From NCBI GenBank assembly GCA_024276605.1, contig JAJRWX010000053.1, positions 1-39,479 of the forward strand: DNA of 39,479 bases, in the 5' to 3' direction. A program made the position numbers and the translations under genes. Below are positions 15,116-39,479 of this stretch, piece after piece. This DNA comes from Planctomycetota bacterium. Lineage in GTDB: Bacteria > Planctomycetota > Phycisphaerae > UBA1845. Numbering within the stretch: the stretch's first letter is position 1; the number at the start of each line of letters is the position of its first letter. Under the pieces are notes generated by a model that did not search any database, was not told where the DNA came from, and was given only the letters and a program-made list of their open reading frames with translations.

Positions 15116-15556
15116 CTAAGACGAGGCGTTGGAAGTTTTATTTGCCTGGGCTTGAAGTTCGGCGAGCATGAGTACGTGATGCAGAGCAATATCCGATACG
15201 ATGTTAGATGCGCTGGGCGTATCCGAAAGCCGTTGTCCCGCGGCTTCGTACAAGCGTACGAGTTTTTGTTGATAGTCAACGATACGCGGTAGTACTTGGG
15301 CAAGGTCAACAAAATGTAAATCGCCCGTCGTGGCATCGGGGTTACGCATACCGGGCGTCGCGCCTAATGAGGAGACGACGTCGGCCAGGCGAGCGGCATT
15401 GCTACGATGTTGCATCGCCAACTTTCTGACTAACGGCTCTTCCGCTTGAGAAAGACCGGAAACAAATGTTGTGGACTCGATTGCGCGAATAGCCAGGCCT
15501 TGTAGTTCGAGACCTATGAGTTCATTAAGTATGTCGGTTGCGAGATTGTCCGTCAT
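15116..15556 (-). CDS. All-helical, possibly ferritin-like protein at the end of the nuo cluster
   Basis: A 146-residue protein predicted to be almost entirely helical, in four segments with conserved-looking Glu and His residues (LGLELQGLAIRAIES-like first helix, KLAMQHRSNAARLADVV second, then RIVDYQQKLVRLYEAAG and DIALHHVLMLAELQAQ). The layout suggests a ferritin-like or DUF-type four-helix bundle, but I cannot confirm metal ligands. Its ATG overlaps the nuoN stop by 4 bp (15553-15556), so translation is probably coupled to nuoN. It has no signal peptide or membrane segment. A role linked to complex I is suggested only by position. Confidence 0.75.
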   Translation of the reverse strand: MTDNLATDILNELIGLELQGLAIRAIESTTFVSGLSQAEEPLVRKLAMQHRSNAARLADVVSSLGATPGMRNPDATTGDLHFVDLAQVLPRIVDYQQKLVRLYEAAGQRLSDTPSASNIVSDIALHHVLMLAELQAQANKTSNASS

Positions 15557-17181
15557 CGTTGCACGTTTTCAATCGGCTGTGTAGCGGAAGCGTCTACGAC
15601 GGCTGTCTCCTCTACGGTTGCGTGAAATATGTTGCGCGTGAATCGGTCGCTCGTTGTTTTCAGTGGTTGGGCGAATACAAACATCACCAGTAGGGCTACT
15701 GCACAAAAGTTGACTAACGCCATGCCGCCTAGCGGGAATGCGACCACTGGTTGGCCATCCTCGCGTAGTGCCATCTTAACGACAATGCGCATGTAATAAT
15801 ACAAGCTGATTAGGGTATTGAAAACCGCGACAATCACCAAGAACCAGCCAAGCGTACTGCCCAGTTGACCTAGTGCAATAAGTATCCACCATTTACCAAT
15901 GAACCCGGCGAACGGCGGTAGGCCCACCAATGACACAAGGCAAATGATCATAGGGATAGCCAACATGGGCGCACGTCGTAACAACCCGGTAAATGATGAA
16001 AGATTGTCGTTGCCCGTGTCCCACACAATCATGGCTACTACGCCGAAGGCACCGAGGTTCATGAACATGTAAATGGCAATGTAAGTCAGCAATGCGCTGA
16101 TACCGCCTTGGCTGTCAGCACTATGTGGATGTACGAAAATCGCGACAGCCATCAACATATACCCGGCGTGCGCGATCGAAGAATACGCCAGGAGTCGCTT
16201 GGCGCTAGTTTGAACATAGGCGGCGAAATTGCCCACCGTACAGGTGATCGCAGCCATGATGCCAATACCCCATGCCAGCGGCGATAATATACCGATCGCC
16301 TCAGGCGCAGCAATTCCGGCGCAGAAAACCATAACCAAGCGTGCCAACAGAATGAGAGCTGCGGCTTTGCTGGCTACACTAAGCCAAGTCGTAACTTCGA
16401 CTTTCGCACCCTCAAAAGCATCCGGACACCAGAAGTGGAAAGGAACAGCGGATACCTTAAAACCGATACCAGCCAATACGCACATGAGCGCCACCAGCGT
16501 GATCACGAGATCATGGCCTGAGGCGAGCGACTGAATACAGTAGTGAGCTACACCGGCTACGCTTAAGCTGCCGCTGAGTCCGTAGAGCAAGCTAATGCCG
16601 TAGAGCATGATAGCAGCGCTGATAGCCCCGAAGATCAGATACTTCAAGGAAGCTTCCGCACCGCGTCGATCTCGTTTGTCAAAGCCCACCATCGCGTAAC
16701 TGGGTAGCGAGGCGGTTTCGATGGCCAGGGCGATCATCAGCAGATTACTGGTACTGACCATCAGGGCCATGCCCACGGCACTTCCGATGAGCAAAATGAA
16801 AAACTCCGGTGCGTTTTCTTCGCTATCACTGGAGCCCATCCACCACAACCAAGTGACCCCGCCCATAAACACCAATAAAATAAGTTGGAACGCGATCGAA
16901 AGATTGTCCACCAGCAGCAAACCCTCCCCCGGTTGGGTCGATAGTCCACTGGCTCCGCCGCTAGCTACTTCCCCAGCCACGCGCAGGGCTAAAATAAAGC
17001 TTGCTATGATGCCCAACACGGCGACTGTGCCAATAGTCTTTGCCGACCTTCCGACAATAATCGGGCAAGCAACCACGGCTAACATGGTACAGATCAGCGT
17101 TAACATGGGCGAAAAGAGGAATAAATGTCGCGTCACATCAACTCCGGCCCAGGCATCAGATTGTGCAAGCATGATGGTCAC
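15553..17181 (-). CDS. nuoN: NADH-quinone oxidoreductase subunit N
   Basis: A 542-residue, roughly 14-helix protein of the antiporter-like (Proton_antipo_M) family. Family marks include a Glu in helix 5 (LLMIALAIETASLPSYAM) and FKVSAVPFHFWCPDAFEGA near 241-259. It is one of three antiporter-like proton-pumping subunits in the membrane arm. The GTG at 17181 has AGGA 10 nt upstream; ATG 17172 is possible. It follows nuoM by 52 bp and overlaps the next gene by 4 bp. Confidence 0.96.
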   Translation of the reverse strand: MTIMLAQSDAWAGVDVTRHLFLFSPMLTLICTMLAVVACPIIVGRSAKTIGTVAVLGIIASFILALRVAGEVASGGASGLSTQPGEGLLLVDNLSIAFQLILLVFMGGVTWLWWMGSSDSEENAPEFFILLIGSAVGMALMVSTSNLLMIALAIETASLPSYAMVGFDKRDRRGAEASLKYLIFGAISAAIMLYGISLLYGLSGSLSVAGVAHYCIQSLASGHDLVITLVALMCVLAGIGFKVSAVPFHFWCPDAFEGAKVEVTTWLSVASKAAALILLARLVMVFCAGIAAPEAIGILSPLAWGIGIMAAITCTVGNFAAYVQTSAKRLLAYSSIAHAGYMLMAVAIFVHPHSADSQGGISALLTYIAIYMFMNLGAFGVVAMIVWDTGNDNLSSFTGLLRRAPMLAIPMIICLVSLVGLPPFAGFIGKWWILIALGQLGSTLGWFLVIVAVFNTLISLYYYMRIVVKMALREDGQPVVAFPLGGMALVNFCAVALLVMFVFAQPLKTTSDRFTRNIFHATVEETAVVDASATQPIENVQR

Positions 17182-17233
17182 GCCATTGGCATCCTACGAG
17201 AAATAATTATGAACCTTAACATGGTCTATATCG

Positions 17234-18883
17234 TTACCGGGTCACACTGATCGCATTCGTTACATGTGCAAGTACCAAATCCAGTGTGCCGTTCGTGAAG
17301 TCGAAAACTGTTTGCATGGGGAAAATGCCCAACGCCAAGGCTAAAATCGCAAAGGGGACGAGAATGAAAATCTCTCGACCGCTGACGTCTGAATAGTTGG
17401 CGTATTCCTCTTTTTCCTTGCCAAGATATACCCGGCGAACGAGCCAAAGAATATAACCTGCGGTGAGTATCACACTCGCAGCCGAAATGATAGCCAGCGG
17501 ATACGCCCACGGATATTTTGATCCCGCATCAAAGGTACCCAACAATACCCAAATTTCTCCGATGAATCCGCACAAACCCGGCAGACCCAGCGAAGCGAAG
17601 AAACCAATCGTCGCCATCGTGCCGTATTTGGGCATGGTCATCCATAGTCCGCCAAAGCGATTGATTTCACGATGATGCGCACGGTCGTAGATGACGCCGA
17701 CCAAGAAGAAGCACATGGGTGAGCTAATACCGTGGGCGATCATCTGAAACATCGCTCCTTGGAACCCGGCTTCGGTCATCACCGCAATACCGAGTAGCAC
17801 GAAACCCATATGAGACACCGAGCTGTAGGCCACGAGTCTCTTAAAATCACTCTGAGCCATGGCGCAGAGAGCACCGTAAATAATGCTGACTACACCAATC
17901 ACGGCGAGGGCATAAGCCCAATACTCCGCCCCGGTGGGAAAAATTGGATAACACAAGCGAAGGAAACCATATCCACCCATCTTCAAGAGTACACCGGCTA
18001 GGATCATGCTGACCGGCGTTGGTGCTTGTACGTGTGCATCGGGTAACCAGGTATGAAACGGCACGATCGGAAGCTTGATGGCAAAACCGATGAACAGGAA
18101 CATGAACATAAGCGGTGCGAACTTCATGCTCAGAAACTGTGTTGCCGGTGAGGCGAAGTAGGATTGAATCGTGTCGTTGGTGGCTAATTCGATGAGATCA
18201 AACGTACCGTGCGTCAATGTGACGTCCGTGCGATAGCCGCTGACAATCTCGCCGCCGGCCTGGGCAATGGCATCGCCGCTATAGAAGTACATGGCAATCA
18301 GGGCTACAAGCATGAGCACGGAGCCGGCTAATGTGAACAGGAAAAACTTGATCGCTGCGTACTCGCGTCGTTCGCCACCCCACACACCGATAAGAAAATA
18401 CATCGGTAGAAGCATAACTTCCCAGAAAATGTAAAACAAAAAGAAATCCAGCGAGACGAAGACGCCGAGCATACCGGTTTCAAGCAGTAGAAAAAGAATG
18501 AAGTAAGCGCGAATGCCCTTATTGATTTTCCATTGCTCCATATTCCAACTGGCCAGGCAGGCCAAAAAACTTACCAGGGTAGTCAAAATAAGTAGCGGAA
18601 AGCCCAGACCGTCAATGCCGAGGAAATACTCAATGGTGATACTTTCACCCGTGATCCAAGGTAGTCGCGTCACATGGTGCAGCGTCCCGTAGGTGCTGCC
18701 GAATACCTCCGTGCTAGAACCACCGGTTTCGCTGCCAAAGTAAATACCAAAAAGCGTCAACGAAAGGAGAAACGTTACGAGCGAAGCCAGGACCGCAATG
18801 CTGCGTATTAACGGCTTAGGCGCAACCAAACAAAGTAGTGCGCCAATCGCAGGGAGAAATACTATGAGTGTTAAAATGTTCAT
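17234..18883 (-). CDS. nuoM: NADH-quinone oxidoreductase subunit M
   Basis: A 549-residue membrane protein of the same antiporter-like family. Marks are FFLFYIFWEVMLLPMYFLIG (key Glu in helix 5) and PFHTWLPDAHVQAPTPVSMI followed by LKMGGYGFLR. It is slightly longer than the usual 490-510 because of an insert near residues 60-90 and a loop near 205-240 (GGEIVSGYRTDVTLTHGTFD). It pumps protons in the membrane arm of complex I. ATG 18883 fits the family start; the ribosome site is weak. Confidence 0.97.
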   Translation of the reverse strand: MNILTLIVFLPAIGALLCLVAPKPLIRSIAVLASLVTFLLSLTLFGIYFGSETGGSSTEVFGSTYGTLHHVTRLPWITGESITIEYFLGIDGLGFPLLILTTLVSFLACLASWNMEQWKINKGIRAYFILFLLLETGMLGVFVSLDFFLFYIFWEVMLLPMYFLIGVWGGERREYAAIKFFLFTLAGSVLMLVALIAMYFYSGDAIAQAGGEIVSGYRTDVTLTHGTFDLIELATNDTIQSYFASPATQFLSMKFAPLMFMFLFIGFAIKLPIVPFHTWLPDAHVQAPTPVSMILAGVLLKMGGYGFLRLCYPIFPTGAEYWAYALAVIGVVSIIYGALCAMAQSDFKRLVAYSSVSHMGFVLLGIAVMTEAGFQGAMFQMIAHGISSPMCFFLVGVIYDRAHHREINRFGGLWMTMPKYGTMATIGFFASLGLPGLCGFIGEIWVLLGTFDAGSKYPWAYPLAIISAASVILTAGYILWLVRRVYLGKEKEEYANYSDVSGREIFILVPFAILALALGIFPMQTVFDFTNGTLDLVLAHVTNAISVTR

Positions 18884-18967
18884 CGTTACATCGATTCTTT
18901 CAAGCTAAATCAATTAAGACCTATCGAGTTACGGGTTCTACTCCGAACAGTTACACGGCCTCATACG

Positions 18968-21343
18968 TTATGGGGCAAGCATCGCCACCGTCTGCTCCGG
19001 TGATGCGACACCCCAATAGGCCAACATCAACACGACGATAATCGTTACACCGCCAACTGCGAATAATACATAATTTCGAATGCGTCCGGTTTGCGAGCGG
19101 CGCATCGCATCACCCACATTGATAGCTGTATCAGCCATACCATTATAAATACCATCCACACCGTGTTGATCCAAGACCAATCCCGAAAACGCAGCCAAGC
19201 GCTCCGTGAGCTTAGCTAGCGTGTTGAATATGAGGTCTACGACCCACGTGTCGAAAAAACGTGCTATATGCGCTACAGCCATACAACCTTTGACCCATAC
19301 GAGGTGATATAAATCGTCGATGTAATACTTGTTTTCGAGCAAGGTATGCAATGGCCCGGCGATGCGCTTGATGCGAGAAGCCATACCCAACCCTCGGCCA
19401 TAGATCACGATCGCAATCGCGAAACCAACGATAAAGGCGCCTCCTACACCATAAATAAGCCAGCTATGAGCGGCATTGATCGCGGTGGTGTGAATCGCAC
19501 CATCCGTGGCCATGACTAATGGGGCGATGGTAGCTTGCGTCGCAGCATCAGCAATGAGATCGCGGAAGAGAAAATAACTAGATACGAACGTACCGATAGC
19601 TAAGACGACCAATGGCACAAACATCATGGGCGACTCATGCGCGTGTTCGTGTACATGGTCATCACGAGGCTTGCCCATAAAGGTCATCCACCAACAGCGC
19701 ATCATATAAAACGGGGTCACATAAGCAGTAAACAATGCGAGATAGAACATCCACTTAGGCAGCGTCGGCGTTTGACTAAAAATCCCCGCCCGTCCATGAG
19801 CGTCTCCCCCATGAGCCGAAGGTTTCAGCCCATGCGGAGTTACGGATGTCGTATGCGTGTCACCATGTGGCTGATCAGAGACTAAAACGATTCGTTTCTC
19901 GCTCGAAAACACATCGTTCGAAGAGTCCTCCGCAGCAGGAATGGGAGGAATCACTGAGGCATGATGACCACCGGCGCCGGCTTCGTGATGAGAATAATCA
20001 TCCCAATCAAATGCCCGCACCCAAGCAACAGCCAGGATTTCATCCTTACTAAAGAACCCGCCCAGCCCGATCTTCGTACCGGCTATACCAAAGCCGGAGA
20101 TGGCTAATACCCCGACAAGAAACGTGATCCCGGTGACGGGCATTTTCTTCATCAGCCCGCCCATTTTGCGCATGTCCTGTTCATGGTGACATCCTTCGAT
20201 CACCTGACCTGAGCCAAGGAACAGCATAGCCTTGAAGAACGCGTGCGTAATAAGATGGAACAGCGCTGCAATCCAAGCGCCGCAACCTAAACCGAATATC
20301 ATGTAACCCAGTTGCGAAAGCGTTGAATACGCCAAACATTTCTTGATATCCGTCTGCACCATAGCAATCAACGCCATGAGGAAAAGTGTGATGCATCCGA
20401 TAGCTGCGACGAACATCAACGCTTCCGGTGTCATCAGGCGGAACACGCGGGCTACAAGGTAGACGCCGGCAGCAACCATCGTCGCGGCGTGAATGAGTGC
20501 GCTAACGGGTGTAGGGCCGGCCATAGCGTCTGGCAGCCAAACATGCAGCGGGAATTGTGCGCTTTTTCCCATAGCGCCGCAAAACAATCCTACACCCATG
20601 ATCGTAGCCAGCGACCAGCCGAACATGGTGAAAGAGCTGGCGAAAATCCCCGTACCCGCTGCGTACTGCTCAGCAAAAATGCGCGCGGCGTCATCAAGAT
20701 CGAGTGTGCCCAACTGAAAATACACCAACATCAAACCAATGATAAAACCGAAGTCACCCACGCGGTTGGTGATGAACGCTTTCATCTGGGCATACTGCGG
20801 CACGCGCTCGTGGAAGTAGTACCCAATCAGCAAATAACTGCACAAGCCGACAAGTTCCCAGAAGATAAACAAAAACAACAGATTGGAACTAAGTACCAGC
20901 CCCAACATGCTAAATGCGAACAGAGATAAATAGGCAAAGAAGCGGTGATACTTACTCTTGCCCGCCACTTCGTCGCTATGCCCCGACATATAGCCAATGC
21001 TGAAGAAGAAAATCCAAAACGCGATGAACGTGACCATGAAATACATGGCCACGGTTAGCGAATCGAGTTTGACGCCGACTAAGATGGACACTGTCCCTAA
21101 ATTGGCCCAATGATAGCGAAAGGCATGTTCAGTCAGCATCGCACGGCTGGCGGCGTCTTCGCCCAGCCATCCCCAAAGTACAATGGATGCCATAGCCAGT
21201 GGCACACCCATCCCTAAGATGACCGCACACCAGCCAGCCCAAGGTTTGCCCAACTTAGGACCAAAGAAAACCAACAGCCAAAAGCTGATGAACGGCGAAA
21301 GGACGCCTAAAGCCAGAAATATCTCGTATGTATGTCCGTTCAT
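18968..21343 (-). CDS. nuoL: NADH-quinone oxidoreductase subunit L, with His-rich insert
   Basis: A 791-residue protein, longer than the usual 610-680. Family marks are LLFLFIFWELVGLCSYLLIG and VWLPDAMAGPTPVSALIHAA. A hydrophilic insert at residues about 448-521 is rich in His, Asp and Ser (HHEAGAGGHHASVIPPIP, later HGDTHTTSVTPHG and AHGGDAHGRAG). After it come further membrane helices and the usual C-terminal region with the lateral helix. It is the distal proton-pumping subunit. ATG 21343 is preferred over the upstream TTG. A further His-rich run, VHEHAHES, lies near residue 560. Confidence 0.97.
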   Translation of the reverse strand: MNGHTYEIFLALGVLSPFISFWLLVFFGPKLGKPWAGWCAVILGMGVPLAMASIVLWGWLGEDAASRAMLTEHAFRYHWANLGTVSILVGVKLDSLTVAMYFMVTFIAFWIFFFSIGYMSGHSDEVAGKSKYHRFFAYLSLFAFSMLGLVLSSNLLFLFIFWELVGLCSYLLIGYYFHERVPQYAQMKAFITNRVGDFGFIIGLMLVYFQLGTLDLDDAARIFAEQYAAGTGIFASSFTMFGWSLATIMGVGLFCGAMGKSAQFPLHVWLPDAMAGPTPVSALIHAATMVAAGVYLVARVFRLMTPEALMFVAAIGCITLFLMALIAMVQTDIKKCLAYSTLSQLGYMIFGLGCGAWIAALFHLITHAFFKAMLFLGSGQVIEGCHHEQDMRKMGGLMKKMPVTGITFLVGVLAISGFGIAGTKIGLGGFFSKDEILAVAWVRAFDWDDYSHHEAGAGGHHASVIPPIPAAEDSSNDVFSSEKRIVLVSDQPHGDTHTTSVTPHGLKPSAHGGDAHGRAGIFSQTPTLPKWMFYLALFTAYVTPFYMMRCWWMTFMGKPRDDHVHEHAHESPMMFVPLVVLAIGTFVSSYFLFRDLIADAATQATIAPLVMATDGAIHTTAINAAHSWLIYGVGGAFIVGFAIAIVIYGRGLGMASRIKRIAGPLHTLLENKYYIDDLYHLVWVKGCMAVAHIARFFDTWVVDLIFNTLAKLTERLAAFSGLVLDQHGVDGIYNGMADTAINVGDAMRRSQTGRIRNYVLFAVGGVTIIVVLMLAYWGVASPEQTVAMLAP

Positions 21344-21466
21344 AAACAATTTTCAATTCGACGCGATCAATCTTGTCGCAGGCCTTTTGACAGCACGGCC
21401 AAGTGCATACACCAGTTATTTTCAGTCTAAGCCATAACCACTGTGTGATGACTTATTTCACAAAAA

Positions 21467-21781
21467 CTATCCTCGCAACTGTGACGCCATGTCGACGTCC
21501 ACAGTGGCAATATTCTTATACACATTGATGCATATACCTACGGCCAAGGCCGTTTCCGCCGCAGCGAGGACAATCATAAAAATAGCCACAATCTGCCCAT
21601 CCAATCGCCCCGGCCCCATATACCGATCAAAGGCTACCAGGTTGATACCCGTGCTGTTGAGCACAAGTTCCACACCGATCAAGATACCAATCGCATTGCG
21701 TTTGGTAGCCATAGTGAATATACCGCAACAAAAAAGCACGGCAGCCACAATCAAATAATGCGTAAGACCAATGTGCTCCAT
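21467..21781 (-). CDS. nuoK: NADH-quinone oxidoreductase subunit K
   Basis: A 104-residue, three-helix protein, normal for the family (100-105). It contains GILIGVELVLNSTGINLVAF with the conserved membrane Glu and, in helix 3, IVLAAAETALAVGICINVYK with the second Glu. It forms part of the proton path next to NuoJ. ATG 21781 is preceded by AGGAAAA in the end of nuoJ, and the gap to nuoJ is 4 bp, so the two are coupled. Confidence 0.96.
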   Translation of the reverse strand: MEHIGLTHYLIVAAVLFCCGIFTMATKRNAIGILIGVELVLNSTGINLVAFDRYMGPGRLDGQIVAIFMIVLAAAETALAVGICINVYKNIATVDVDMASQLRG

Positions 21782-21785
21782 CGTG

Positions 21786-22415
21786 CTATTTTTCCTGTCG
21801 CGCCAGATGGGCAGCGCCCACCATGACAATCATGAGCAGTACCCCAGCCAGTTCAAAGGGGACTAAGTAAGTCGTGAGTAGCGCCCGGCCGATGTCCGCA
21901 ATCGACGAGCCGGACACTGATGATATCGTCGTGTCAAATTGGGCACGCGTCAGCAATAAACTCAAGCAAATAAATAGAACGCCGCAAACGATGGCCGCAC
22001 CCCATATCTCTATTTTTCGCGGCTCGAACTTGGCCCACGGGGACTTACTCGTAAGCATAACTCCGAAGACCAGCAGAATAAGCGTACCGCCGGCGTAAAC
22101 AATCAGTTGAATGGCTGCGATGAAATTAGCCGCGAGCATGAAATATAGCAGCGCAACCGAACCCAACGCCCCGAATAGCCACACAGCCATCCGTACGATG
22201 TTCTTACTGAAGCAAACGCCCAATGCCGAGATGACAGCTACAGCTGCTACCATGTAAAACAGGACCACTTCCATCCACGTGCCCGAAGCCGCCCCATGAG
22301 TAATACCTGAATGATCGACCACATCTGCGGCTGAGTCACCAGCGAAAGCCGCAGAGCCAATAGCGACTACGCACAAGAAAGCAAGGGTTACTATGTGAGA
22401 CCTATGACGAAACAT
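21786..22415 (-). CDS. nuoJ: NADH-quinone oxidoreductase subunit J
   Basis: A 209-residue membrane protein with the NuoJ core FYMVAAVAVISALGVCFSKN, then NFIAAIQLIVYAGGTLILLV and ELAGVLLMIVMVGAAHLA. Unusually, the core follows a signal-peptide-like start (TLAFLCVVAIGSAAFAGD) and a short polar stretch, making it longer than the usual 165-185. This suggests a processed N-terminus or one extra helix. ATG 22415 is preferred over GTG 22421. It lies 24 bp after nuoH. Confidence 0.95.
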   Translation of the reverse strand: MFRHRSHIVTLAFLCVVAIGSAAFAGDSAADVVDHSGITHGAASGTWMEVVLFYMVAAVAVISALGVCFSKNIVRMAVWLFGALGSVALLYFMLAANFIAAIQLIVYAGGTLILLVFGVMLTSKSPWAKFEPRKIEIWGAAIVCGVLFICLSLLLTRAQFDTTISSVSGSSIADIGRALLTTYLVPFELAGVLLMIVMVGAAHLARQEK

Positions 22416-22439
22416 AAACACCCAATATCAAGGTTAAAC

Positions 22440-24122
22440 CTACGACGCAGGCATGGCGTCGACCGCCAAATTGCCAACCATTCGTCGGCGATGATAAAAT
22501 CCGTAGCCGGCAATCGCTGGAAAACCTAACAAGAAAACGAAACCACCAATACCCAACGCCCAATTAACGATGTCTGCGAACAGATGCCAGCCAGCACTGT
22601 CTGATGTTTGTGCCCATGTCCAGAGTGTGACGCCAAAGAGCAAGAACATAGTCAACGGCAACAATACCTGAATGCAAGCATACAACACCTGATCAATGCG
22701 AACACGCGGCAGCGTCCAACGAAGCCAAATTTGCACGTACAGTAGAAACAGTGCCTTAGCAAATAGCCAAATCGGGCCGTCGAACAATATACCGTTGATG
22801 CCGCGTGCGAAGACATTCTCTCCCAGTAAGTTCGTCACATGCACCGCCCACGACGCAGGCAAAGGCGAATGCCAGCCACCCAAAAACAAGATGACCGCCA
22901 ACGCGCAGACCACAAACATGGCCGCATATTCAGCAAAGAAAAACAACGACCAGCGAAAGCCTGAGTATTCCGTCACGAAGCCCGCTACCAGTTCACTTTC
23001 CGCTTCGGGAAGATCAAACGGCGCACGCTTGCAACTGGCCAATGAAGCAATGTAATAGCAGATGAAGGCTGCAAAACAAAATGGATTCGTAAATATCAGC
23101 CAGGAAAACCAGCCACCTGATTGTGCATCCCCGATCGTCTGCAAACTCAAAGACCCCACACATACGACGGGAATCAGCAAGGCCATGCCCATGGGGATTT
23201 CATACGACACCATCTGAACCGCTTCACGCATCGCACCGTAGACGCTCCACTTATTATTCGACGCCCAACCTGCCAAAATCACCGCGAGCACTTCAATGCC
23301 CAGCATAGCTAAGACAAACACCAACGCGACGTCCAATTCTCGAAACACATAAGTCATGCCGAATGGCAACCCCACAAACGCCAGTAGCGACGGGATGATG
23401 GCAAAGTATGGCGCGATGCGATAGAGCTTACTGTCCGCCTTGTCGGGAATAAGGTCTTCTTTGAGAACAAGTTTGATACCATCCGCAAAAGACTGCGCCC
23501 AGCCATGCCACCCACCAACACGCATGGGACCGAGTCGAGATTGAATGCGACCGGCAACTTTGCGCTCCCACCAGATCAGATACACGGGGATGATATTAAA
23601 CAAACCAGCCAAGGCACCCAACACAGTCAAGTCACGAACCAGTGGATATTGTAATGGCCATAAGGCTGGGATAAACCACGCAGGAAGCCAACTAATAGCC
23701 GCCTGCATTTCCGCCAGCGTCAGCGGAGCACCGAACCAAGTATGAACCGCCACGTCATTGGCAGCGCTGGCTACTAAATCCACGCTGATCCACTCGAATA
23801 GCATGTTGATTAGCCACACGCCTATCGTTGTTGATAGAATCGCACCTATGAAAATCAACAATGCAAATCGAAAGAGTAGTTGACCTATTGATCGCCAGGT
23901 CTTCACAATACAAGCCACGACGAGGGCTAAACCCGCAGTAGCGATAGGACCGACGACCAGCAATAATGTACCTACGGGATGGTCATTCAAAAATGTAGAT
24001 GTGATCCAACACCCCACACCGGCCAGGACGGCTAGTAACACGGCAAGTATCACAGCTCGGGTAGCCACCGCGAACTGCGGCTTCTCTACATGAGGATTCC
24101 AAGGAAACGCAAATTGGGTCAC
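22440..24122 (-). CDS. nuoH: NADH-quinone oxidoreductase subunit H, N-terminally extended
   Basis: A 560-residue protein; NuoH is usually 320-430. The standard core begins near residue 165 with VYLIWWERKVAGRIQSRLGP, then ADGIKLVLKEDLIP, VYGAMREAVQMVSYEIPMG and KRAPFDLPEAESELVAGF, which form the quinone-chamber loops. The ~140 extra N-terminal residues contain three hydrophobic helices (about 21-42, 50-73, 80-105) and no motif I recognise. NuoH carries electrons' quinone-binding site coupling to the pumps. The GTG at 24122 has GGAG about 10 nt upstream and overlaps the stop of a 48-codon ORF (24119-24265). Confidence 0.96.
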   Translation of the reverse strand: MTQFAFPWNPHVEKPQFAVATRAVILAVLLAVLAGVGCWITSTFLNDHPVGTLLLVVGPIATAGLALVVACIVKTWRSIGQLLFRFALLIFIGAILSTTIGVWLINMLFEWISVDLVASAANDVAVHTWFGAPLTLAEMQAAISWLPAWFIPALWPLQYPLVRDLTVLGALAGLFNIIPVYLIWWERKVAGRIQSRLGPMRVGGWHGWAQSFADGIKLVLKEDLIPDKADSKLYRIAPYFAIIPSLLAFVGLPFGMTYVFRELDVALVFVLAMLGIEVLAVILAGWASNNKWSVYGAMREAVQMVSYEIPMGMALLIPVVCVGSLSLQTIGDAQSGGWFSWLIFTNPFCFAAFICYYIASLASCKRAPFDLPEAESELVAGFVTEYSGFRWSLFFFAEYAAMFVVCALAVILFLGGWHSPLPASWAVHVTNLLGENVFARGINGILFDGPIWLFAKALFLLYVQIWLRWTLPRVRIDQVLYACIQVLLPLTMFLLFGVTLWTWAQTSDSAGWHLFADIVNWALGIGGFVFLLGFPAIAGYGFYHRRRMVGNLAVDAMPAS

Positions 24123-24265
24123 GAAGCTGCTACTCCAAGCGAGAAAATCATACTTAGCTCAAGCTGAGCAAAATCATAGTGGTTACCGATGTCAGCGCAA
24201 AGAGCACCATCAATCAAGGGCTTAGAGTCGTAAGCGTCGTCACCGCTTCTAAACCTGTCAGCCAT
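24119..24265 (-). CDS. Possible 48-aa small protein between nuoD and nuoH
   Basis: A 48-residue ORF starting MADRFRSGDDAYDSKPLIDG and ending in the hydrophobic LSMIFSLGVAAS. Its ATG starts 2 nt after the nuoD stop, and its TGA overlaps the GTG start of nuoH (GTGA), so it fills the gap completely. This tight packing is what translational coupling would produce. I recognise no domain. It occupies the place where nuoE-nuoF-nuoG stand in the E. coli order, but does not resemble them. It could be chance, since a 48-codon frame is short. Confidence 0.45.
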   Translation of the reverse strand: MADRFRSGDDAYDSKPLIDGALCADIGNHYDFAQLELSMIFSLGVAAS

Positions 24266-24267
24266 CA

Positions 24268-25467
24268 TTATCGATCCACCTCACCCATCACCACATCGAT
24301 ACTGCCGATGATCGCAGGGATATCTGCGAGTAATACGTCTTGGCATACCTTGGTCGTAATAGATAAATTACAAAAACTTGGACCACGTGCCTTAACCCGT
24401 GCGGGAATAGTAGAGCCGTCACCACGTACATAAAAGCCCAGTTGTCCCCGTGGATTCTCCACCTCCACATAAACCTCATCATCGGGGAGTTTAAGATTCT
24501 TAAGCTTAGGTGCTTCCGTCGGCCCTTCCGGAAGCTTGTCCATCGCCTGGCGAATAATACGCACCGATTGGGTCATTTCCAACACACGCACGTAATAGCG
24601 ACTCCAACAATCGCCGACGATCACACCGTCCGGTACGCCGTTAACACCAGCGGGATAGGCTATGGGTACTTCAAAATCGTAAGTTTCATACCCATCGTAA
24701 GGCTGAGTCTTGCGTAAATCCCACCGCAATCCGCTGCCGCGAAGCATCGGGCCTGTGGTGCCATACGCAATGGCATCCTCGATACTAATCACACCCACAC
24801 GCGACGTGCGCTTGACGAATATCTGATTAAAGCTCAGCAGGTTGTTGTAATCGTCGATCTTCGGCTCAAAGTAGTCCAGAAACTCACCGCATCGCTCTAT
24901 CCAGCCATCCGGCAAATCGTCATGAACGCCGCCCACGGTTATATAGCTATATGTCAGCCTTGCGCCGCAAGCAGCCTCGAACATATCGAGAATCATCTCG
25001 CGCTCACGGAAGCAATATAAAAACGCCGTAAACGCCCCCATGTCCAGACCATAAGTGCCCAGCGAAACAAGGTGAGACGCAATACGATTGAGTTCCGCAA
25101 ATATTACACGGATGACCTGGGCACGTTCGGGAACTTCAATACCACAAAGTCGTTCCACAGCCAGGGCAAAGCCCTGGTTGTTGTTCATCCCCGCGAGATA
25201 GTCCATGCGGTCGGTATAAGGGATGAACTGAAACGGTTGAATGTTTTCACCGATTTTTTCAGCGCATCGATGCAGATACCCAATGTGAGGAATAGCTTCA
25301 AGCACCATTTCGCCATCCGTACGCAGCACAATGCGCAAGACGCCGTGCGTCGATGGGTGTTGCGGCCCCATATTGATTAACAATTCTTCGGTTCGCAGAT
25401 CACCCTGTGCGCCGCGATCATAATCGACCAAGAGGTCCGGTTGAGATTCGAGAACTGTATTATTCAT
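24268..25467 (-). CDS. nuoD: NADH-quinone oxidoreductase subunit D
   Basis: A 399-residue protein of normal length for the 49-kDa subunit, related to the large subunit of NiFe hydrogenases. Marks are MGPQHPSTHGVLRIVL with the quinone-site His, YLHRCAEKIGENI, YTDRMDYLAGMNNNQGFALA and LRGSGLRWDLRKTQPYDGYE. It forms the quinone-reduction site in the peripheral arm with NuoB. ATG 25467. It follows nuoC by 26 bp. Confidence 0.98.
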   Translation of the reverse strand: MNNTVLESQPDLLVDYDRGAQGDLRTEELLINMGPQHPSTHGVLRIVLRTDGEMVLEAIPHIGYLHRCAEKIGENIQPFQFIPYTDRMDYLAGMNNNQGFALAVERLCGIEVPERAQVIRVIFAELNRIASHLVSLGTYGLDMGAFTAFLYCFREREMILDMFEAACGARLTYSYITVGGVHDDLPDGWIERCGEFLDYFEPKIDDYNNLLSFNQIFVKRTSRVGVISIEDAIAYGTTGPMLRGSGLRWDLRKTQPYDGYETYDFEVPIAYPAGVNGVPDGVIVGDCWSRYYVRVLEMTQSVRIIRQAMDKLPEGPTEAPKLKNLKLPDDEVYVEVENPRGQLGFYVRGDGSTIPARVKARGPSFCNLSITTKVCQDVLLADIPAIIGSIDVVMGEVDR

Positions 25468-34908: not shown

Positions 34909-35258
34909 AAGTGTTAGTAAAGCTCGCGCAGGATCGTAAGCAACTTCGATATGCCTTATAGGTCGTATGTATTCGTGGGATCTACGCATCATTACCAAAT
35001 ACACCATACCGCCGTAATTAAAGTGTATATTCACCAAATTCACCCAAATTGAATACTGAACGACCGCTAATTATCTCACTGATAGGAATCCCTGGAAAAC
35101 TGCTTCTCGATTTCAAGAATTCGGGTCAAGGGGAAGATGCATTACTGTTTTGGGGATCATCACAACCCGCATTATTGGAGATGGCCGGTTTCGGGGAATG
35201 ATTTGGCATGTTCCTTGCTAGTTCTTTTTGACATAGCAGCGTAAAGTCTCGGAGGGCA
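34909..35258. other. Intergenic, AT-richer than its flanks
   Basis: A 350-bp gap between the two multiheme genes. No clear hairpin-T terminator and no repeat is seen. A strong GGAGGG (35251-35256) precedes the next start. Confidence 0.5.
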
Positions 35259-38200
35259 ATGCGCGCATTCCTTATAAAGATGGGATTCGTCATGATCTGG
35301 AAGCTCGCGTTAATGGTCAACGTCGTTGCCGTGCAAGCGGTCAATCCTCTCGTGCATGTCGGCTCGCTCACCAATGGATTACAAGGCCCCGCGCGGGTCA
35401 ATGTAGCCTCCGACGGCACCCTTTTAGTAGCTGATCCTCAAGCAAACCAAATTGCACGGTTTGACTCTTTAGGTGTATTTTTGGGGAATTGGTCTGTTCC
35501 GGAAGGTCCGTTGGATGTTGCGGCACACGGTGACGGTCGGTACTTCGTATCACTTCGTGACACTTCGGAAGTGGCCATCTACGACAGTGGATTTGTACGT
35601 ATTGGCACGCTTGGCGGGGGAAACCCGTTGGTTACCTTTATGCAGCCGACGGACATCGACATCGCGTCGGACACTGGGCGAATCTATGTGGTCGACGGCA
35701 AGGGGGATCGGGTCTACGGGTTCGAGTCGGATGGGACACTGGCGCTGTTCTTCGGCATCCGCGGGACGGGCAATGGGCAATTCAAGTATCCCAGTGCGAT
35801 CGCAGTAGACGAAGCGCAAGGTCGACTGATCGTGGCGGATCATGATAACTTCCGGATTCAGATATTTACGACATCGGGTGTTTTTCAGAGACGGTTCGGG
35901 TATCGAATCAAATACACGATACAGGGTGATGAGGGGTGGATGCCAAGAACGCTGGGTTTGGATGTTGATGCCGCAGGTCACATCTACGTGACGGACGCAT
36001 TGATGGGTACGGTTCGTATCTTCGATGCCTTGGGTTCCGAACTAGGTAAGGTGGTGACATACGGATCGAACCCGGGCGACCTTCGAGTACCGAGCGACGT
36101 GGCGCTCAACGGAAATGAGTCGCAAGTTTATGTCGTGAGCACGAGCACGAGCAGCGTGGAGGTCTACAACACACCAACGTTCGCAGCGCCGATGCTACAG
36201 AGCACGCCGGCGCGGGGATGGAACGCGTCAACGCTGGACGTTGATCGTCAACGTGGAGAGCGTGATCAGTGGATGGGACGAAATAAATCGTTTTTCCGCA
36301 ACCCCCGTAGCAAATCAGGCATTCGTGGAAATTCGACAATCATAACAGGTGACAGCGCGTTGACCCAGGCTACGGATTTCGAAGGCCCGCACATGATCGA
36401 GGGGCCGGTGATCTGTGGTCGGTGCCACGGGATTCCGGATCAGCCGGGCGGACACCTCGGGTTGGTCGAGGGTCAGGGTGTACTGTGTCTTTCGTGCCAT
36501 AACACAGCCGGCGCAAGTCTGAACTTGCCGAAACGAGAGTTGGACATCGCGGATCCGTACAGTACGAATCCGGCAGCAGTGGACGGTCAAGGTCGATCGC
36601 ACGCCTGGGGTGTTCCTGCAGTGAACGCGGCGGCGGATTCGATCGGACCACGCGCGGGCGGGCTAATGGAACGCTACCTCGATGGTGGTATGATCAAATG
36701 CGCAACGTGCCACAATCAACACAATAACTTATACGGTACCCCCTACTTACGCACCTCCAATGTCGGCGACGCCATGTGTAAGGAATGTCATGCGCCGCGG
36801 AACGAGGGCCTTGGCGAACGCGGCACACACCCGGTAGGATTTGCGTATCCGGGCGGCACAGGCGAGTTTCCGCTGGAAGCCGCGGTGTCTCCGCTGGTCA
36901 TCAAAGATGGAAAAGTCGAGTGCATGACATGTCATGCACCGCACAAGGCCGACTCGGGCGGTGCAAACGGCGGCGCCGGCGACGGGATGCTTTTGAGAAG
37001 TGCCAACGACGAAACACTGTGCAAAACGTGCCATGCCAACCACATCGGCCACACGGCAGGCGGTGCGTGGCAGCCAACCTGCAACGACTGTCACAACGCG
37101 CACGATCCAACAAGCATGAATCTTTCGCTGATCGCCCGGACAGTCTTCAATCAGACATTGGGCACGAACTTTCCGGTAGTATTCACGTCGCTAACCGGTG
37201 CCAACAGCTTCGATGACGGCGATCCAACGGTCAACGACGGCATTTGCCAGGTTTGCCACACGGCAACTACGTACCACAAACAGGACGGCAGTGGAGTCGC
37301 ACACAACGACGGACTGAACTGTACGTCGTGTCACCCGCACAGCGCAGGATTCATGCCTGCCGGCGGTTCATCCTGCATCGCGTGCCACAGCAATCCGCAG
37401 GATAACGGTGACGGAATTCCCCTTGGCGGTCGTCAGCCGGTAGTCAATGCGGACGGTAGCGGCGGTCACCATCTAGCCGGCGGTGTCTTGACGGACGGTG
37501 ACTGCGTAACGTGCCATGAGATGGCACAGCATCAAGCCGGTCAGGTGCGGTTGTGGTCCGATCCGAACAACCCGGTGACACCTCTTCTAGTCACCGGAAA
37601 CCCAGCCGAACTTGTTCCGTTCTGTGAATCCTGCCACACCGGAACCGATCACCCGATCATCCATACGACGGGGACGGCCTGGGTTCCGGTCTGTACGGAG
37701 TGTCACGAATTACATGACCCGGCCAATACAAACTTGTTCCTCGTGAACGACATCGTGAGCAACCAGACACTGGCGGTGAATAAGCCTGTGGTATTCACCG
37801 CACTCACGGGACCAAACAGTTTCGACGATGGATTCGGCGCTAACGACGGCATCTGCCAAGTCTGTCATACCGCAACGAATTACCACCTTCAGGACGGAAC
37901 TGGTATTACACACAACGATGGACAGGATTGCACGACGTGTCACCCGCACTCGTCAGGATTCCAACCAACGGGTGGGTCGTGCATCACGTGCCACAGCAAT
38001 CCGCAGGACAACGGTGACGGGATTCCGATCGGCGGTCGTCAGCCGGTCGTCAATGCAGACGGCAGCGGCGGTCATCACTTAGCCGGTGCGGTCATGACGG
38101 ATACGGACTGCACAACTTGTCACGAAATAACGCAACACCAGCTGGGTACCGTGCGTCTATGGACCGATCCCAACAACCCGGTAACACCGTTACCGCTAAC

Positions 38201-39479
38201 CGGTAATCCAGCGGAAGTTGAGACATTCTGCACCAACTGTCATAGCGGCGTAGACCATCCGATCATTCACACCACGGGCGCCGCTTGGGAGCCGACTTGC
38301 TTGCAATGCCACGAATTACATGACCCGGCCAACGCCAACCTGTTCCTGGTGAACAACATCGTTCGTAACGAGACGTTGGCGGTGGACAAGCCGGTGGTGT
38401 TTACGGCACTGACCGGACCGAACAGCTTCGATGACGGCGACCCAACAGTTAATGACGGCATTTGCCAGGTTTGCCATACGGCCACCAACTTCCATCTACA
38501 AGATGGTACGGGAACGCCACACAACAATGGCGAGAACTGCACGACGTGCCACCCACACGGCAGCGGATTTCTGCCGACGGCAGCTCCGAGCTGTATCACG
38601 TGCCACAGTAATCCACAGGATAATGGTGATGGGATTCCTCTAGGCGGTCGTCAGCCGGTCGTCAATGCAGACGGTAGCGGCGGTCATCACTTAGCCGGTG
38701 CGGTCATGACGGATACGGACTGCACAACTTGTCACGAAATGACGCAACACCAGTTGGGTACCGTGCGTCTATGGACCGATCCGAACAACCCGGTGACACC
38801 ATTACCGTTAACCGGTAATCCAGCGGAAGTGGAGACATTCTGCACCAACTGTCATAGCGGCGTAGACCATCCCATCATTCACACGACAGGCGCCGCTTGG
38901 GAACCGACTTGCTTGCAATGTCACGAATTACATGACCCGGCCAACGCCAACCTGTTCCTGGTGAACAACATCGTCCGCAACGAGACGCTGGCGGTGGACA
39001 AGCCGGTGGTGTTCTCGGCACTGACCGGACCGAACAGCTTCGATGACGGCGACCCGGCAGTTAATGACGGTATTTGTCAGGTTTGCCACACGGCCACCAA
39101 CTTCCATCTACAAGATGGTACGGGAACACCGCACAACAATGGCGAGAACTGTACGACATGCCACCCGCACGGCAGTGGATTCCTGCCGACGGCGGCTCCG
39201 AGCTGTATCACGTGCCACAGTAATCCGCAGGATAATGGTGATGGGATTCCGATCGGCGGTCGTCAGCCGGTCGTCAACGCAGACGGCAGCGGCGGTCATC
39301 ACTTAGCCGGTGCGGTCATGACGGATACGGACTGCACAACTTGTCACGAAATGACGCAACACCAGTTGGGTACCGTGCGTCTATGGACCGATCCCAACAA
39401 CCCGGTGACACCACTACCGCTCACCGGTAATCCGGCGGAAGTGGAGACATTCTGCACCAACTGTCATAGCGGCGTAGAC
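35259..39479 (+). CDS. Giant multiheme cytochrome c with NHL-type propeller, partial (at least 30 CxxCH)
   Basis: An open frame of 1407 codons with no stop before the window edge; the C-terminus is missing. ATG 35259 is preceded by GGAGGG (35251-35256) at short spacing; an in-frame stop (35229) blocks anything longer, and ATG 35280 is possible. Residues 1-27 look like a signal peptide (KLALMVNVVAVQA). Residues about 30-320 are NHL-like repeats (PARVNVASDGTLLVADPQAN, then PTDIDIASDTGRIYVVDGKG and PSAIAVDEAQGRLIVADHDN). From residue 386 come seven CxxCH motifs (CGRCH, CLSCH, CATCH, CKECH, CMTCH, CKTCH, CNDCH). Then four tandem modules of about 204 residues follow, six motifs each, with five visible in the last. 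That is 30 in total. The N-terminal heme part resembles doubled-CXXCH proteins. It is probably exported and electron-conducting. Confidence 0.9.
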   Translation, partial: MRAFLIKMGFVMIWKLALMVNVVAVQAVNPLVHVGSLTNGLQGPARVNVASDGTLLVADPQANQIARFDSLGVFLGNWSVPEGPLDVAAHGDGRYFVSLRDTSEVAIYDSGFVRIGTLGGGNPLVTFMQPTDIDIASDTGRIYVVDGKGDRVYGFESDGTLALFFGIRGTGNGQFKYPSAIAVDEAQGRLIVADHDNFRIQIFTTSGVFQRRFGYRIKYTIQGDEGWMPRTLGLDVDAAGHIYVTDALMGTVRIFDALGSELGKVVTYGSNPGDLRVPSDVALNGNESQVYVVSTSTSSVEVYNTPTFAAPMLQSTPARGWNASTLDVDRQRGERDQWMGRNKSFFRNPRSKSGIRGNSTIITGDSALTQATDFEGPHMIEGPVICGRCHGIPDQPGGHLGLVEGQGVLCLSCHNTAGASLNLPKRELDIADPYSTNPAAVDGQGRSHAWGVPAVNAAADSIGPRAGGLMERYLDGGMIKCATCHNQHNNLYGTPYLRTSNVGDAMCKECHAPRNEGLGERGTHPVGFAYPGGTGEFPLEAAVSPLVIKDGKVECMTCHAPHKADSGGANGGAGDGMLLRSANDETLCKTCHANHIGHTAGGAWQPTCNDCHNAHDPTSMNLSLIARTVFNQTLGTNFPVVFTSLTGANSFDDGDPTVNDGICQVCHTATTYHKQDGSGVAHNDGLNCTSCHPHSAGFMPAGGSSCIACHSNPQDNGDGIPLGGRQPVVNADGSGGHHLAGGVLTDGDCVTCHEMAQHQAGQVRLWSDPNNPVTPLLVTGNPAELVPFCESCHTGTDHPIIHTTGTAWVPVCTECHELHDPANTNLFLVNDIVSNQTLAVNKPVVFTALTGPNSFDDGFGANDGICQVCHTATNYHLQDGTGITHNDGQDCTTCHPHSSGFQPTGGSCITCHSNPQDNGDGIPIGGRQPVVNADGSGGHHLAGAVMTDTDCTTCHEITQHQLGTVRLWTDPNNPVTPLPLTGNPAEVETFCTNCHSGVDHPIIHTTGAAWEPTCLQCHELHDPANANLFLVNNIVRNETLAVDKPVVFTALTGPNSFDDGDPTVNDGICQVCHTATNFHLQDGTGTPHNNGENCTTCHPHGSGFLPTAAPSCITCHSNPQDNGDGIPLGGRQPVVNADGSGGHHLAGAVMTDTDCTTCHEMTQHQLGTVRLWTDPNNPVTPLPLTGNPAEVETFCTNCHSGVDHPIIHTTGAAWEPTCLQCHELHDPANANLFLVNNIVRNETLAVDKPVVFSALTGPNSFDDGDPAVNDGICQVCHTATNFHLQDGTGTPHNNGENCTTCHPHGSGFLPTAAPSCITCHSNPQDNGDGIPIGGRQPVVNADGSGGHHLAGAVMTDTDCTTCHEMTQHQLGTVRLWTDPNNPVTPLPLTGNPAEVETFCTNCHSGVD
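37191..39479 (+). repeat. Tandem 612-bp coding repeats (hexaheme modules)
   Basis: Units start at 37191, 37803, 38409 and 39021, with lengths 612, 606, 612 and at least 459 bp (cut by the window). Each begins LTGPNSFDDG (first copy LTGANSFDDG) and encodes six CxxCH motifs in fixed spacing, with the linkers NPQDNGDGIPLGGRQPVVNA and LWTDPNNPVTPL. Units 3 and 4, and the second half of unit 2, are nearly identical in DNA, while unit 1 is more diverged. Confidence 0.9.

Follow-up and report, generated by a model that had tools for sequence, protein, structure and literature searches.

A giant multiheme cytochrome with a beta-propeller head in an uncultured planctomycete: a candidate exported electron wire

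The DNA analysed here, called the window, is a stretch of 39,479 nucleotides from a Planctomycetota bacterium (Phycisphaerae, UBA1845; assembly GCA_024276605.1). It is an entire contig (JAJRWX010000053.1, hereafter C35) of a 110-contig bin, G000, which is 96.03% complete and 2.11% contaminated. At its right edge lies a single open frame (35259-39479) that runs for 1407 codons, free of stops through the final base, and that encodes a multiheme cytochrome, P0001. The visible 1407 amino acids contain 30 CxxCH heme-binding motifs, the first at residue 386; 1000 shuffles of the residues gave a mean of 0.137 motifs and a maximum of two, and the remaining five frames of the same interval hold 0, 0, 1, 0 and 0. 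No CxxxCH or CxxxxCH variant was found in the visible protein. The GGAGGG just ahead of the ATG supports a start codon at 35259. Hydrophobic 19-residue windows of the visible protein start at residues 3-16 only, a pattern that fits a putative signal peptide.

Pfam models identify P0001 as a c7/c3-like multiheme cytochrome. Together with the 30 motifs, it scores 134.3 bits against Cytochrome_C7 (PF14522; cut-off 24.8) and 52.8 bits against Cytochrom_c3_2 (PF14537; cut-off 25), while Paired_CXXCH_1 is barely above its cut-off (23.5 against 20.6 bits). The NHL model reaches 57.9 bits (cut-off 20), an AlphaFold model of residues 1-625 contains with high confidence a propeller of 24 strands at residues ~30-310, and the top Foldseek matches of this propeller model are NHL propellers; the head is thus a six-bladed NHL beta-propeller. 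The original prediction, made before any database search, had described an unfinished giant cytochrome with at least 30 heme motifs joined to a beta-propeller, and had named the NHL and doubled-CXXCH profiles as a check. Both profiles are over their cut-offs, and the frame, motif count, Pfam matches and AlphaFold model confirm that a 30-heme propeller cytochrome frame is present in the window.

The heme array has a tandem construction. The autocorrelation of residues 371-1407 has its maximum at a lag of 204, corresponding to a six-heme unit of about 204 amino acids, and modules start at residues 608, 812, 1014 and 1218 (Table 1). Between modules 3 and 4, 30 of 570 bases but 3 of 190 residues are different (ratio of nonsynonymous to synonymous change, dN/dS, 0.04), and we read these mostly silent differences as the trace of purifying selection on a real protein. 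An initial alignment that mixed single and triple modules misplaced the single modules and was discarded. The module set used here comprises 43 modules from 23 genes (23 of the 50 module-matching proteins, with duplicate loci and some independent proteins omitted, and with matches kept if they spanned about positions 2-180 or more of the 204). All 43 modules have the six motif histidines, partner histidines at positions 8, 66, 75, 87 and 151, and a sixth partner at 130 or 131. In a wider set of 48 strings, some representing the same gene twice, His 8, 66, 75, 87 and 151 occur in 48/48 and His 131 in 44/48. By conservation, each module heme therefore has a second histidine, as in c7/c3-like cytochromes, and the pattern fits bis-histidine (bis-His) ligation of every heme. 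Seven histidines of the entry domain that lie outside its motifs (residues 378, 448, 488, 524, 562, 595 and 598) are likewise kept in all 12 sequences compared.

Table 1. Features of the giant cytochrome gene and its upstream neighbour, in window coordinates.
Feature	Position	Strand	Remarks
Neighbour P0002, 972 amino acids	31990..34908	+	11 CxxCH; lipobox LTGC at 48; LVIVD repeats; 350 base pairs (bp) upstream of the giant gene
Shine-Dalgarno-like GGAGGG	35251..35256	+	Immediately 5' of the ATG
Putative signal peptide, residues 1-27	35259..35339	+	End set by eye; hydrophobic windows at the N-terminus
Six-bladed NHL propeller, residues 28-310	35340..36188	+	Pfam, AlphaFold, Foldseek
Linker, residues 311-377	36189..36389	+	Low model confidence; poorly conserved
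Entry heme domain, residues 378-607	36390..37079	+	Six CxxCH
Six-heme module 1, residues 608-811	37080..37691	+	
Six-heme module 2, residues 812-1013	37692..38297	+	
Six-heme module 3, residues 1014-1217	38298..38909	+	
Six-heme module 4, residues 1218-1407	38910..39479	+	Contig end at model position 190/204
Terminal 141 bp, also found unchanged at the end of C50 and at the start of C99 (C99 reverse strand)	39339..39479	+	Assembly branch point

C35 stops within the heme array, and a protein search of the bin found further array-bearing places on contigs C99, C75, C50 and C110. C110 holds a complete paralog of 1069 amino acids with 15 hemes and one module. The C50 gene (L019:12484-13557) has a lipoprotein-like N-terminus and no propeller and reaches the end of the contig after nine hemes. 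Two 3' ends, each with 20 hemes, lie on C99 and C75. The start of C75 matches C99 positions 112-251 over 140 bp and diverges afterwards. In the simplest reading, two paralogous genes, that of C35 with a propeller and that of C50 without, would break in a common 251-bp repeat; the 141 bp at the branch point presumably correspond to the k-mer length of a short-read assembler that could not cross this repeat. Joined in register, C35 and C99, or C35 and C75, give 2159 amino acids and 49 CxxCH motifs either way, so that the choice of 3' end is immaterial to the heme count. C50 joined to either 3' end gives 1110 amino acids and 28 motifs, the same heme number as in the complete array-only relative L061 (1158 amino acids). 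Residue differences hint that C35 may pair with C75, since the first full module of C75 is 2-3 residues away from modules 3 and 4 of C35, against 20-22 for C99; the overlap length points the other way, being exactly 141 bp with C99 and 30 bp with C75. The original prediction that the true protein is longer, perhaps by many hemes, is thus upheld, and the extension of the contig proposed with it could be achieved in part, through the other contig ends of the bin, either of which adds 19 hemes. The count of 49 for the propeller gene would follow from contig overlaps along the shortest assembly path, and extra near-identical modules may lie between its contig ends.

Two explanations of the paired 3' ends were discarded. 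Strain variation was rejected: C99 and C75 have no common 15-mer in the 3.6-3.7 kb past their stops, and the protein identity of their common part (709/762) also counts against it. An extra module in C75 was dropped once the start of this contig proved to be the 140-bp match to C99. A more general doubt is that the array is an assembly artefact, chimeric or over-counted from two paralogs or strains, with a shorter real protein behind it. C35 indeed ends in sequence common to four contig ends, and the C35 and C50 genes have module sequence in common, so that a switch between them could have occurred. We nevertheless regard an artefact as highly improbable. Exact repeats within the C35 gene do not exceed 107 bp, which makes each of the four visible modules a sequence of its own, and the mostly silent differences between modules 3 and 4 indicate that the assembler did not generate them by copying; in addition, other bins contain long arrays that are complete (33 hemes in L086, 30 in L027 and 28 in L061), and the single-contig genomes G004 and G023 contain 22-heme arrays. 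The worry about assembly collapse that accompanied the original prediction was justified in that the assembly breaks in the array, but does not extend to the visible modules.

Matches to P0001 were found in 30 of 51 genomes of the same family at 1e-20, and within the order the module profile hits 22 of the 114 genomes. At 1e-30, a class sample gave 31 matching genomes out of 397 (26 of the same family and five of other families, all in one order) and a phylum sample gave one out of 392, namely the genome of the window itself; both samples scored few candidates per genome, and weaker relatives would escape. In a scan of named genomes, which needs exact short peptide matches, 16/16 loci belong to Phycisphaerae, Phycisphaerales or Planctomycetota. 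Two of the relatives' genomes agree letter for letter, in the part that was compared, with records of OFTM243 and OFTM5; OFTM5 has been assigned to family UBA1845 (PMC10732223), to which the window genome probably belongs as well. The relatives carry from one to at least six modules, many proteins of 12-18 hemes having one, and their propeller proteins form a heme series of about 15, 17, 26, 30, at least 43 and about 49. The OFTM243 propeller protein at L056:4266-9647 (+) carries 43 hemes, includes at least six modules and is open at its contig end; its true size may go beyond that of the window gene. In a tree of the 43 modules, a split supported at 99/99 separates the last pre-tail modules (19 rows) from the inner ones (24 rows). 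Among the latter, the six of L056 form a group of their own (98/92), and the inner modules of the window genome cluster with those of the relative G037 (94/92), from which the array appears to have expanded separately in at least two lineages. Two further loci deserve mention. The single-contig genome G003 encodes a complete propeller protein of 2081 amino acids and 34 hemes (L073:4238-10483, -) that belongs to a more distant subfamily and has no module match, and a propeller-cytochrome match in another relative (G025:C227:12924-14417, -) contains one TAG stop, due to an error or to a pseudogene.

Some of the relatives' propeller genes lie beside a divergent gene cluster with the appearance of an electron conduit. 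It encodes a 5-heme cytochrome, a histidine kinase, a sigma-54 response regulator, a 391-aa protein (aa, amino acids), an 11-heme protein, a 4-heme cytochrome, an NHL protein, another 5-heme cytochrome, a 691-aa protein and a second 11-heme protein. The cluster of the window genome is on contig C56 (L021, G000:C56:1-16000) and encodes cytochromes with 11 hemes (two), 5 hemes (two) and 4 hemes (one), a pair of NHL proteins, the barrel-like protein of 691 aa, a kinase and a sigma-54 regulator. Judged by eye, the 691-aa protein, which ends in Phe, may be a beta-barrel. The first 11-heme protein of C56 (415 aa) matches chain A of PDB entry 6r2q at 6.9e-16; we take this chain to be MtrA of MtrCAB, its molecule name in the PDB being a different one. 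The code 6r2q appears three times in the paper on MtrCAB (PMC7198977; here and below, published work is cited from excerpts). Of 22 propeller genes, 10 have a homologue of the C56 5-heme cytochrome in divergent orientation no more than 3 kb upstream; none of five array-only genes does. The 22, each with at least 1 kb upstream, were taken one per locus from 25 loci, three being omitted for too little upstream sequence, and are not independent, as they include a more distant subfamily and several genes of one genome. At L063 and L089, other cluster members are found nearby in place of the 5-heme one. The 23-heme propeller gene at L089:4911-9377 (-) has a homologue of the 691-aa barrel-like protein 39 bp upstream, in divergent orientation. 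Elsewhere in the window genome, contig C50 carries another 11-heme open frame (L101:2415-4382, -; 655 aa), and the window itself contains Complex I genes at 15553-25467 (-), for three antiporter-like subunits, NADHdh and the 49-kDa subunit.

Immediately upstream of the giant gene lies P0002 (Table 1), a lipoprotein candidate that seems distantly ExtM-like. It matches NF040943, the model of ExtM from the Geobacter ext cluster, over residues 62-598 with 196.9 bits against a curated cut-off of 800, which does not make it an ExtM, and it has LVIVD repeats besides. Its homologues occur in 9 of the 51 family genomes, and we have rejected P0002 as a generally conserved partner of the giant gene. The match to ExtM and the distance of 350 bp are nonetheless what one would cite for the view that P0001 is a redox enzyme, or a metal or tellurite-selenite reductase, whose array feeds a substrate site, perhaps together with P0002. 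We find this improbable: P0002 is far below the ExtM cut-off and much less widespread than the giant family, neither a CxxCK-like nor a catalytic domain was found, and the conserved second histidine of each module heme leaves no obvious open heme site in the modules.

We propose instead that P0001 is probably an exported multiheme wire, most likely located at or outside the outer membrane and linked to a conduit, with the propeller as a docking head. From its N-terminus, the protein would consist of a signal peptide and the six-bladed propeller, followed by an entry domain with 6 hemes, six modules of 6 hemes each and a tail with 7. After export, it would be loaded with heme by the maturation system of the cell, and electrons would travel by hopping between successive bis-His hemes of a single chain. 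An outer-membrane conduit of the MtrA/Uet type may be its electron partner on one side; on the other, it may deliver electrons to, or receive them from, minerals, humics or partner cells, the propeller possibly serving to dock. Cell location, direction of electron flow, docking by the propeller and an extended shape are all what we infer here. Placement at or beyond the outer membrane is suggested by the relatives that encode a propeller gene beside the conduit cluster and by the similar variation in length of the extracellular PCC3 cytochromes. The conserved heme ligands support, in the same conditional sense, the electron-conductor role given in the original prediction, and the propeller may be the binding head named there; the filament-like nature also envisaged there, in the sense of OmcS, OmcE or OmcZ, finds no backing in the sequence, since no such chain is among the matches of the PDB sequence searches.

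The length of the array bears on where the protein could work. MtrCAB carries 20 hemes in 185 A (PMC7198977). At this spacing, about 9 A per heme, 49 hemes would extend over about 45 nm. The periplasm is usually narrower than that. It is tempting to suggest a covalent, length-tunable nanowire, in which a six-heme block is multiplied by tandem duplication between a fixed propeller with its 6-heme entry and a fixed 7-heme tail, the number of repeats setting the length, so that the protein could reach about 45 nm without polymerizing; we put this forward tentatively, as a possibility with rather less than an even chance. The main rival to an outward wire places the chain in the periplasm, as a wire between inner-membrane donors and an outer-membrane conduit or as an electron store (capacitor), and we judge it unlikely, though to be taken seriously. 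P0001 has a putative signal peptide without lipobox or anchor, GSU1996-type proteins have been described as periplasmic capacitors (PMC10138318), and periplasmic PCC3 cytochromes carry 21-27 hemes (PMC10734462). A chain of about 45 nm, however, exceeds the usual width of the periplasm unless it is folded, and a propeller head combined with a variable length would better suit an outward reach.

Several observations weigh against the exported wire that we favour. P0001 shows no lipobox, and no hydrophobic segment past the N-terminus either in the visible protein or in the C-terminal pieces of C99 and C75, neither of which has a hydrophobic 19-residue window; no anchor is therefore seen. The divergent 5-heme neighbour is missing from 12 of the 22 propeller genes, the window gene has no homologue of the conduit cluster upstream, and the C56 cluster has no giant gene beside it, so that a link to a conduit is likely in part of the family, whereas for the window gene it would be indirect. 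The 691-aa barrel-like protein has no Pfam, NCBIfam or PDB sequence match. The presence of PF01578 proteins in the window genome is a weak check on c-type cytochrome maturation, as the model also fires in 9 of 14 control genomes. The original prediction had proposed modelling one module and the tandem array; AlphaFold on two modules, with a 13-row alignment, gave a mean pLDDT (predicted local distance difference test) of 47.5 and the model was not used, and in the model of residues 1-625 only the propeller was obtained, residues 310-625 not being modelled confidently. The geometry of the wire is thus hypothetical.

If the proposal is correct, this bacterium would achieve long-range electron transfer by one covalent chain and not by a polymer of small cytochromes. 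The relatives would then constitute a natural length series in which conduction could be tested against wire length with head and tail constant, and an uncultured planctomycete order would likely be electroactive.

The module profile matches PDB entry 3ouq at 2.3e-5, which we take to be part of GSU1996 of Geobacter, and the cytochrome c7 entry 3h4n at 0.0062. GSU1996 and GSU2210 are, like the window protein, tandem heme arrays in a single chain, with 12 and 27 hemes, respectively, and the triheme domains of GSU1996 have one His-Met heme each (PMC10138318). The window protein differs by its six-heme modules with six conserved partner histidines, its propeller and its probable 49 hemes, and does not have a GSU1996-type array. 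Closer in proposed role are the extracellular PCC3 cytochromes of Gallionellaceae, which have 10-35 hemes and are modelled as long and mostly linear (PMC10734462). They share with the window protein a large size, a variable heme number and a proposed outward conduction from a porin conduit; compared by description, they have fewer hemes (35 at most against 49), and the excerpts of that paper mention neither a propeller nor a 6-heme tandem module. The same source describes the Uet (undecaheme electron transfer) complex, which resembles the relatives' cluster in gene content, with 11-heme and 4-heme cytochromes, NHL proteins and a barrel, whereas those excerpts list no giant propeller cytochrome as part of Uet (PMC10734462).

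The original prediction called multiheme proteins of this size rare, which holds, but larger ones have been published. Multiheme cytochromes of anaerobic methanotrophic (ANME) archaea have up to 86 heme motifs, the figure coming from a fosmid of ANME-2c (PMC9012536), so the window protein is not a size record; Borg cytochromes have up to 33 motifs (PMC11208441). The ANME giants are similarly very large single chains joined to non-heme domains. They are archaeal, with S-layer or pectin-lyase-like domains and, in several types, membrane helices (PMC9012536), none of which was seen in the window protein; no S-layer model is among the six Pfam families of the visible 1407 aa, the C-terminal pieces lying outside the Pfam scan. 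Domain types, tandem heme arrays and giant cytochromes such as these are already known, and it is the combination of an NHL propeller with a repeat-tunable six-heme tandem array for which we found no report in the open-licence full-text literature searched, as far as its excerpts go. The OmcS, OmcE and OmcZ filaments, of which no subunit homologue appeared among the PDB sequence matches, are polymers of small subunits of 4-8 hemes (PMC10138318). Long-range conduction through stacked hemes, the role proposed here, is what the window protein would have in common with them, and the difference is that its array is covalent in one chain.

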